Below are positions 45,100 to 48,580 of a DNA stretch of 64,000 bases, piece after piece. The DNA lies in NCBI GenBank assembly GCA_003209585.1, contig QCQJ01000007.1, forward strand, positions 1 to 64,000. Direction: 5' to 3'. Below the pieces are notes generated by a model. It was not told the origin of the DNA. It made no database searches and saw only the letters and a program-made list of their open reading frames with translations. Every line of letters begins with the position of its first letter. Positions within the stretch are counted from its first letter, which is position 1. Position numbers and translations under genes: made by a program. The stretch comes from Prochlorococcus sp. AG-449-G23. Lineage in GTDB: Bacteria; Cyanobacteriota; Cyanobacteriia; PCC-6307; Cyanobiaceae.

Positions 45100-45366
45100 A
45101 TGGAAGATAATACTGCAAAATATTGGTTCTCTTGGTTTTATGAAAAGTGGGAGAAAAATGCTCCAGGTGAATTAATTGAACAGGGTTTAACTCCGTCTCA
45201 GATTGCTGAGCGCTTTGTTAATGAAAATCATGATAGTTTTATTCAATTGTCAAAAAAAATTGATGAAAAAAATTATGATGCCTTAACAGAATTTATGAAA
45301 CTCTCAGAGAGTGAATTACATATCTTGAAGTATTTTCTAAAGTTAGTAAAAATGAAAAATTTATAA
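45100..45366 (+). CDS. Acidic helical protein; similar to 34297-34623
   Basis: YWFSWFYEKWEKNAPGELIEQGLTPSQIAERFV...EFMKLSESELHILKYFLKLVKMKN. Confidence 0.7.
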   Translation: MEDNTAKYWFSWFYEKWEKNAPGELIEQGLTPSQIAERFVNENHDSFIQLSKKIDEKNYDALTEFMKLSESELHILKYFLKLVKMKNL

Positions 45367-46290
45367 GAAGTTATTAAGTATTTCGAGGCTTTTTTCCCAT
45401 AAATTTTTTCTTTCTTTTTTATTCATGGCGAAAGGAGAAGTAGGGGATAGCTTTGGATGACCTCTGAAATTAAATCTAGGACCATAATGATCACCGCCTC
45501 TTGCGACTGGTGAAGTAGCTGCAAAAAGCTGAGGTAAAGCACCCATCTCAGCAGTTTGAAAAATAGGACTAAATAATTCCAATGAGAATGTTTCTAATGG
45601 ACCAGGGTTAGGTTTTTGAGCAGTAAACAGATTTGTTTTTGCAATTCCTGGGTGAGCAGCTAAAGAAAGTATATTTTTGTGCTTTAAGTTCTCATTCAGT
45701 TCCAAAGCAAACATTACATTTGCCAATTTGCTATTAGAGTAAGATTCCCATTTGTTGTAATAATTCTCGGCTTTTAGATTTTTCCAACCAACTTTGCCAA
45801 AAAATTGTGCTCCGGAAGTCACCGTCACTATTCTAGATTCTTCTTTTTTTTCAATAATTGGAAGTAGCTTTAGAGTCAAAAGCATGTGAGCTAAATGATT
45901 AACTGCAAATTGTATTTCATATCCCTGGGCACTAAGAGTTTTAGGCGGATGCATAATGCCTGCATTATTGATTAGTAAATCCAAATTTTCAAAATTATCA
46001 AAAATTTTGGACTGAACTTCAACAATATTTTTTAAATCTGACAAATCTAATTCTAAAGGTGTAAATAATCCTTCAGGATTAAGACCTTGAAGTTTTTTGA
46101 TAGTTTGATTGGCTTTTTCAAGTGATCTACAAGCTATAACAACATGAGCATTTTTTTCTGCTAAGGCCTTTGCAGTGTAGTATCCAAGACCACTATTCGC
46201 ACCAGTAATTAGCGCTGTTTTGCCCGTAAGGTTTGGAATATTAGATGTTTTCCAGTTAGAGATTTTAGGTCTTGAAATAGTGGAAGTCAT
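45361..46290 (-). CDS. Short-chain dehydrogenase/reductase (POR/retinol dehydrogenase-like)
   Basis: TGANSGLGYYTAKALA; NNAGIM; YSNSKLANVMF. Confidence 0.94.
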   Translation of the reverse strand: MTSTISRPKISNWKTSNIPNLTGKTALITGANSGLGYYTAKALAEKNAHVVIACRSLEKANQTIKKLQGLNPEGLFTPLELDLSDLKNIVEVQSKIFDNFENLDLLINNAGIMHPPKTLSAQGYEIQFAVNHLAHMLLTLKLLPIIEKKEESRIVTVTSGAQFFGKVGWKNLKAENYYNKWESYSNSKLANVMFALELNENLKHKNILSLAAHPGIAKTNLFTAQKPNPGPLETFSLELFSPIFQTAEMGALPQLFAATSPVARGGDHYGPRFNFRGHPKLSPTSPFAMNKKERKNLWEKSLEILNNFL

Positions 46291-46398: not shown

Positions 46399-47148
46399 TT
46401 ATTTTTCAATTGCATATTGCCATTCGTTATTTTGAGATAAACTTTTCTCTCTTAGTAACTGTAATTTCCTACTATTTATTTTTATAACTATCCCATTAGT
46501 TGGATATTTCGCAAATATTTTTTTCTCTAACCAATTTTTTTTATATATTTGGATTTCGCTTGTATGATTTGTGAAGTAACTGTCAGGGGTGCTGAAGCCA
46601 CATTTTTTAAGATAGTTAAGGGTTTCATATTGATTAAGTCTTCCATTAAGTATTTGGAAACAGCAAAAGCGGAGACTTTCTCCAATCCCTTTCTTATCAT
46701 TGAGGTATTTTCTTGTAATTCTTTGGGAAATGCCGGCAACTTGGTTTGTAGCGTATAGTTCACCTCTAATTTGAAAATCTCGTTTGATAGGAATATAATC
46801 GGGGACATTTTTAATTTGTTTAATTTTGCTTGAGACATCAAATCCTTTTTTTGTAATAGCTTTATTAAACTTGCCATCTATATATCTAATTGCAATAGCA
46901 CAGCCATCAATTTTTGGTTGAATGCTTAATCTTGTTTTTGTTAATAAACTTTCCAAAAATTCTTTATAGTTTTCTTTGGCTAATTTTGGCAAAAGTTTAT
47001 TATTTTTTTGATTAAAATAGTCTGGCTCTGGATCAACAGGAATAAAGAGCTTTTCAAGTTGCTTAAATGCATCATCCGAAATTATGCCTTTACCTATTCT
47101 GTATTGTTCATCTAGATACTTAACATCTCTCACTAATAAATTATTCAT
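46399..47148 (-). CDS. Stand-alone NAD+-dependent DNA ligase adenylation-domain-like protein
   Basis: QPKIDGCAIAIRY (KxDG), IRGELY, NGIVIKIN nucleotidyltransferase motifs; no OB/Zn/HhH/BRCT. Confidence 0.85.
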   Translation of the reverse strand: MNNLLVRDVKYLDEQYRIGKGIISDDAFKQLEKLFIPVDPEPDYFNQKNNKLLPKLAKENYKEFLESLLTKTRLSIQPKIDGCAIAIRYIDGKFNKAITKKGFDVSSKIKQIKNVPDYIPIKRDFQIRGELYATNQVAGISQRITRKYLNDKKGIGESLRFCCFQILNGRLNQYETLNYLKKCGFSTPDSYFTNHTSEIQIYKKNWLEKKIFAKYPTNGIVIKINSRKLQLLREKSLSQNNEWQYAIEK

Positions 47149-47425: not shown

Positions 47426-48580
47426 ATGTCATTTTTATTAAAAGCGCAAAGTATTTGGGACAATTTTGCGAAATACAAAATTAATGATTATGCAAAATTA
47501 AGAAATTTTGATTTTGGGCCAAATAACGAAAGTTCAGTTTCAAAATTATCGCCTTTTATTACTCATAGAATATTATCTGAATATGATCTGATCCATGATA
47601 TTAAAAGTAAGTACAAAATCAAAAATTCAACTAAATTTGTTGAAGAAATATTTTGGAGAGTTTATTGGAAAGGGTGGATGGAAAATAGACCTAAAGTTTG
47701 GCGAAATTTTATTTCAAAAAACAATCTAGATTTTGATTATGAGCTATATGAAAGTGCAATTAATGGCAATACAGAATTAGATTTTTTTAATTCTTGGGTC
47801 CATGAATTAAAGCAGTGCAACTATTTGCATAACCATACAAGAATGTGGTTTGCGAGTACTTGGATATTTAATTTAGGCCTCCCATGGCAATTGGGAGCAA
47901 AGTTTTTCTTTAAATATCTTTTTGATGGAGATGCTTCATCTAATCTCCTTAGCTGGAGATGGGTCGGAGGATTGCAAACGAAGGGAAAACAATATCTTTT
48001 TTCATCATCAAACCTCAGAAAGTTTTCAAATAATAGATTTAATGTAGAAAAAATAAGTAATCAACAAATTTTTCTTGAAGAATCTAATCAAATACCATTT
48101 GAAGATGAGATTTATAAAAATGATATGGATCCTAAATCAGATAATCTGATTCTGTTTGAAAATGATTTGCACCTTGCAACCCTTAAAAATTTACTTCCAA
48201 GCTATAAAAAAGTATTTATTATCCTTTTAAAAAATGAACAAAGACAAATTAAATTGGCTGAATCTGTTTTGAAATTTAAACAAGATTTGGTCTCTGAAGT
48301 TGTAGAGCAATTTGATAATGTTGAACAGATTGATCCTTATTCACTGGAAAATACTTTTAAAAATACCAACGAAATAGACATTATTTACCCTGGAGTGGGA
48401 GAAAATTATGATTTCATAACTGAGTTTAAAAATTTACACCATAAAAATATTTTTAATCTTGTGAGGGATGAAGATTTATTCGCTTGGAAATTTGCTAAAA
48501 GAGGGTTTTTTAAATTTAAAGAAAATATTCCAAAAATAAATCAGAGAATATTAGAAAATTATTCAAAAAATAATTTTTAA
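47426..48580 (+). CDS. Photolyase/cryptochrome FAD-binding-domain protein
   Basis: FVEEIFWRVYWKGWMENRP...HNHTRMWFASTWIFNLGLPWQLGAKFFFKYLFDGDASSNLLSWRWVGGLQTKGKQYLF. Confidence 0.88.
   Translation: MSFLLKAQSIWDNFAKYKINDYAKLRNFDFGPNNESSVSKLSPFITHRILSEYDLIHDIKSKYKIKNSTKFVEEIFWRVYWKGWMENRPKVWRNFISKNNLDFDYELYESAINGNTELDFFNSWVHELKQCNYLHNHTRMWFASTWIFNLGLPWQLGAKFFFKYLFDGDASSNLLSWRWVGGLQTKGKQYLFSSSNLRKFSNNRFNVEKISNQQIFLEESNQIPFEDEIYKNDMDPKSDNLILFENDLHLATLKNLLPSYKKVFIILLKNEQRQIKLAESVLKFKQDLVSEVVEQFDNVEQIDPYSLENTFKNTNEIDIIYPGVGENYDFITEFKNLHHKNIFNLVRDEDLFAWKFAKRGFFKFKENIPKINQRILENYSKNNF

Follow-up and report, generated by a model that had tools for sequence, protein, structure and literature searches.

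Phr7 of Prochlorococcus sp. AG-449-G23, a photolyase-like protein, probably of the NewPHL type, with its FAD-binding domain first

Photolyases of class I carry an alpha/beta antenna domain at the N-terminus, followed by a helical domain that binds flavin adenine dinucleotide (FAD). What, then, is the photolyase-like protein in which the FAD-binding domain comes first, and is it new? The question is raised by a gene in contig QCQJ01000007.1 (positions 1 to 64,000, the whole 64,000-nucleotide stretch analysed here and termed the window) of Prochlorococcus sp. AG-449-G23 (assembly GCA_003209585.1). The gene, phr7, is a complete open reading frame (ORF) on the forward strand (47426..48580) with an ATG start and 384 codons plus a stop, and it encodes a protein of the photolyase family with an N-terminal FAD domain; a preliminary description of this ORF gave its coordinates exactly, and the peptides that it quoted are all present in the translation. 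With considerable confidence, the gene can be identified as Phr7, a photolyase of the NewPHL type, which would repair cyclobutane pyrimidine dimers (CPDs) in a light-driven reaction, probably in single-stranded DNA.

This identification is based on the work of Haney et al. (2022; PMC9426592), who described Phr7 as having an FAD domain at the N-terminus followed by a C-terminal Z-domain, and as devoid of iron–sulphur (Fe-S) cysteines, and who found it in high-light (HL) and low-light I (LLI) Prochlorococcus, with Prochlorococcus MIT 9302 as an example, and reported its absence from clades LLII–LLV. The MIT 9302 orthologue and the window protein share 85% identity over 384 residues, and the two have the same domain order, the same lack of Fe-S cysteines and the same HL distribution, with no substantial difference. 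According to the same authors, Phr7 corresponds to NewPHL, the CPD photolyases for single-stranded DNA that Emmerich et al. (2020) described; PMC13274461 summarises NewPHL as enzymes with an inverted domain topology that repair CPDs in single-stranded DNA. In the window protein, an N-terminal catalytic domain and a C-terminal second domain are indeed found in a single chain, and this inverted topology is common to the NewPHL proteins of Dinoroseobacter shibae and Methylobacterium mesophilicum, which were compared by their published description only. The family has thus already been described, and the window gene is another strain's copy; since the literature has this Prochlorococcus protein under the name Phr7 and places it in NewPHL, the suggestion of a novel flavoprotein has to be given up.

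The FAD-binding catalytic domain occupies residues 8–205 (47447..48040, forward strand), as judged from Pfam PF03441, from photolyases in the PDB and from residue conservation. The Pfam FAD_binding_7 model matches residues 71–193 (7.7e-14, above the curated cut-off), although it is aligned at positions 1–128 of 203 only, the last 75 or so positions having no match, and class I photolyase structures in the PDB match residues 8–193 (best value 7.7e-21, with a family profile), which places the FAD-binding domain at the N-terminus, as had been proposed. In an alignment with class I enzymes, the lesion positions and those of the tryptophan relay, which we take to be as established for class I, carry E74, W77, M140 and W179 in the former case and W177 and W154 in the latter, whilst the distal (third) tryptophan of the class I relay is not conserved. 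At the flavin positions, which were taken from Haney et al. (2022; PMC9426592), the protein has Y22, S39, L41, S42, R78, N136, D167, D169 and N173, along with four substitutions, V38 (T to V), F71 (W to F), Y133 (W to Y) and S172 (A to S). Judging from FAD_binding_7 and these flavin-binding residues, the protein is a member of the photolyase/cryptochrome family, and it has in common with the class I CPD photolyases (E. coli Phr and Anacystis/Synechococcus PhrA) the FAD and lesion residues and two of the three relay tryptophans.

An alternative is a light sensor or another flavoprotein, resembling a cryptochrome, that had lost DNA repair. Such a protein would be in line with the missing distal tryptophan, and repair by Phr7 is a prediction from its sequence. 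However, no variation is seen between Prochlorococcus, Alphaproteobacteria and class I enzymes at the lesion-pocket residues E74, W77, N136, M140 and W179, CPD repair has been reported for relatives (PMC9426592, PMC13274461), and the gene occurs in the clades of the upper water column while being reported absent from LLII–LLV (PMC9426592), so that a loss of repair is highly unlikely.

The antenna domain that precedes the FAD domain in class I enzymes is missing from the N-terminus of the window protein. No such domain is encoded ahead of the FAD domain, the 277 bases upstream being intergenic DNA with a gene in divergent orientation beyond them, and there is no space for it at the start of the protein because the FAD match begins near residue 8. 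The preliminary reading of a photolyase-like protein with a swapped domain order is therefore upheld: the FAD domain comes first, no antenna lies upstream and an alpha/beta domain is C-terminal.

This C-terminal domain (the "Z-domain", residues 237–384, 48134..48577, forward strand) is separated from the catalytic domain by a linker (residues 206–236, 48041..48133, forward strand) that is the least conserved part of the protein among near relatives. The C-terminal 150 or so residues have no significant family match in Pfam or NCBIfam. They do contain a conserved signature, RxxDxxxWxxAxxGFFxxK (residues 347–365, 48464..48520, forward strand), in which R347, D350, W354, G360 and F361 are invariant from Prochlorococcus through Alphaproteobacteria. 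An AlphaFold2 model of the domain, built from its own alignment, has a mean pLDDT (the predicted local distance difference test) of 79.7 and an alternation of beta and alpha elements that includes five strands and has two helices after it; a full-length model from HL-only sequences had low confidence in the FAD part and was not used. The strands of the C-terminal domain run in the ordinary order, which rules out a circular permutation inside a domain, so "circular permutation" was too strong a term for two domains that are swapped in order.

The relationship of this domain to the photolyase antenna was approached through profile comparisons and fold matches. In the former, the Prochlorococcus C-terminal domains match those of alphaproteobacterial relatives (1.4e-7, score 48.4, the best of 200 column shuffles scoring 22.6); the alphaproteobacterial domains match Phr5/6 (2.9e-5, score 35.6, against 20.9 for the shuffles); and the third step, from Phr5 to the class I antenna, is also a match (4.7e-7, score 48.0, against 23.6). 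The second of these steps is the weakest link, as it covers 54 columns and was strong only after the sequence sets had been enlarged and trimmed. In the Foldseek search with the AlphaFold2 model, the top match was a phosphopantetheine adenylyltransferase (4.1e-3, non-significant), whereas the (6-4) photolyase PhrB (4.6e-2, also non-significant) had the highest query TM-score (template modelling score), 0.52, among the 50 matches listed. The PhrB match is assumed to fall in its alpha/beta domain because the FAD domain of PhrB is all-helical.

These results could also be explained by a fusion that added an unrelated Rossmann-like or nucleotidyltransferase-like domain to the C-terminus, without any swap of domain order. 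The adenylyltransferase at the head of the Foldseek matches, weak NCBIfam matches to the same enzyme and the negative outcome of a direct profile match to the antenna would all fit such a fusion. The stepwise chain via the NewPHL-like proteins and Phr5, which beats all shuffles at every step, and the leading TM-score of PhrB argue against it. One HUP-type fold group usually takes in both the adenylyltransferases and the antenna domain of photolyases, so the adenylyltransferase match is not in conflict with antenna homology. An added, unrelated domain is, on balance, unlikely, though it deserves to be taken seriously; the most likely identity of the C-terminal domain is a photolyase alpha/beta domain that has diverged far, and the domain order is, therefore, swapped relative to class I enzymes.

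Several points weigh against reading the protein as a NewPHL-type CPD photolyase with a displaced antenna-like domain. CPD repair and FAD binding by Prochlorococcus Phr7 are predictions from its sequence; the alphaproteobacterial proteins in the comparison owe their NewPHL assignment to domain order, lineage and literature; Foldseek returned nothing below 0.001 for the model of the C-terminal domain; and a direct profile comparison of the Prochlorococcus C-terminal domain with Phr5 or with the antenna was negative. Of the antenna-like alpha/beta domain first envisaged, the alpha/beta fold is borne out by AlphaFold2, while its kinship with the antenna, likely but not proven, is suggested by the chain of intermediates and by the fold match. 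The C-terminal part was not found to be unrelated to the photolyase Rossmann domain, the relatedness being seen through those intermediates and that non-significant match only.

An FAD part that precedes an antenna-like part is also found in the cyanobacterial Phr4/Phr5 and Phr6 proteins (Synechococcus, Cyanobium), whose FAD domain is about 26–34% identical to that of Phr7. Phr5 and Phr6, which occur in the genomes of picocyanobacteria and on plasmids of Deinococcus, are the clearer cases of an antenna domain that follows the FAD domain; Phr5, unlike the C-terminal domain of Phr7, has a clear antenna match (4.7e-7). Moreover, the Phr4/5/6 proteins have four Fe-S cysteines, are often encoded by two ORFs and form a separate clade, whereas Phr7 is encoded by one ORF and has no Fe-S motif, which is excluded in the AG-449-G23 protein because C131 is its only cysteine. 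At three Deinococcus plasmid loci, FAD-then-antenna proteins of the Phr4/5 and Phr6 types are encoded in split as well as fused form, and in one genome (G095) phr4 and the phr5-like ORF downstream of it do not abut but lie about 0.8 kb apart.

Might Phr7 be a fused descendant of the split cyanobacterial Phr4/Phr5 (or of Phr6) that lost its Fe-S cluster during the streamlining of the Prochlorococcus genome? The reversed domain order in common, the FAD tree of Haney et al. (PMC9426592), where Phr4 and Phr6 are the nearest neighbours of Phr7, and the distant profile similarity between the alphaproteobacterial C-terminal domain and Phr5 speak for such a descent. In an FAD-domain tree, however, Phr7 and the alphaproteobacterial proteins form one clade (100/99), also after the removal of two long-branch rows; this tree contains six alphaproteobacterial rows, its Prochlorococcus rows are atypical in amino-acid make-up, and the tool gave a long-branch warning. 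A constrained tree that unites Phr7 with cyanobacterial Phr4/6 to the exclusion of the Alphaproteobacteria is rejected (approximately unbiased test, p-AU 3.6e-84), which rules out descent from Synechococcus Phr4/5, and the Phr7 C-terminal domain has no direct match to Phr5. Descent from the split or fused cyanobacterial proteins in general is, accordingly, very unlikely.

Full-length relatives of Phr7 were found by a tblastn search of plasmids in Alphaproteobacteria (Ruegeria, Niveispirillum, Asticcacaulis, Peteryoungia and Novosphingobium), that of Ruegeria TM1040 being 35.5% identical over residues 21–371 (3e-67). These NewPHL-like proteins have the same architecture, 28–36% identity over both domains and the C-terminal signature in common with Phr7; five of their genes adjoin genes for DUF3429 proteins or UbiB-type kinases. 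A search of 194 genomes of the cyanobacterial class with the C-terminal domain profile recovered Prochlorococcus only, plus three marginal matches. The rejection of the constrained tree suggests that a Prochlorococcus ancestor acquired phr7 by horizontal transfer, which is the simple reading; differential loss of phr7 is a possible alternative. A phage origin was rejected, as phage records contain no full-length relative and viral contigs searched with a profile yielded nothing; in IMG/VR, one contig holds only the last 42 residues, at the contig end.

Within Prochlorococcus, phr7 is a standard gene of the high-light group. It is single-copy in the host genome (1.41 Mb, 41 contigs), full-length orthologues at 68–97% identity are present in most genomes of the genus searched, and orthologues about 40% identical occur in a second Prochlorococcus genus, which we infer, partly from the published distribution, to be LLI. 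The ratio of non-synonymous to synonymous substitution rates (dN/dS) is around 0.07–0.18 in the FAD part and in the C-terminal part alike, as expected of purifying selection on both halves. The full-length orthologues across the genus and these low ratios mean that phr7 is a real gene, and a frameshift, a pseudogene or a fusion artefact is ruled out, the fusion being intact in most Prochlorococcus genomes with both halves under purifying selection.

Divergent to phr7, a gene on the reverse strand (46399-47148) encodes a stand-alone adenylation domain of an NAD (nicotinamide adenine dinucleotide)-dependent DNA ligase (249 residues, PF01653, 2e-18); two further Prochlorococcus genomes have it conserved next to phr7, and a third lacks it at that position. 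A short-chain dehydrogenase gene (45361-46290, reverse strand) is the only neighbour common to HL and LLI-like genomes and, at three loci of the latter, is directly downstream of phr7.

How might the protein work? The N-terminal helical domain, with its flavin and lesion residues, would bind FAD, and its pocket would take in a pyrimidine dimer. By analogy with class I photolyases, blue light or ultraviolet A would excite the reduced FAD, which would pass an electron to the dimer, and the electron would be returned after the dimer had been split. The W177–W154 relay, in which the third class I tryptophan is missing, may help hold FAD in the reduced state. The C-terminal alpha/beta domain may close the FAD site and so substitute for the N-terminal antenna domain; Emmerich et al. 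reportedly found in 2020 that the second domain of NewPHL seals the FAD site. A preference of Phr7 for single-stranded DNA would follow that of its relatives.

The main value of the locus lies in the possible link between Phr7, NewPHL, Phr5 and the antenna, the swapped order being supported and the novelty not. A more far-reaching and rather doubtful proposal is that the C-terminal domain is a true relative of the antenna via Phr5/Phr6, that the reversed-order photolyases (Phr4/5, Phr6 and NewPHL) belong to a common lineage with a single switch of domain order, that Phr7 could hold a second chromophore in this domain, and that Prochlorococcus gained Phr7 from Alphaproteobacteria as a replacement for Phr4/5. 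A link from the NewPHL C-terminal domain through Phr5 to the canonical antenna bears on the origin of the photolyase family, near the ancestor of which short photolyase-like proteins have been proposed to lie; homology between this domain and the antenna, if true, would indicate rearrangement rather than an ancestry near such short proteins. The locus also shows that the Prochlorococcus of the sunlit ocean has, besides ordinary photolyases, an enzyme of reversed domain order, and repair of single-stranded DNA is reported for relatives of this enzyme.
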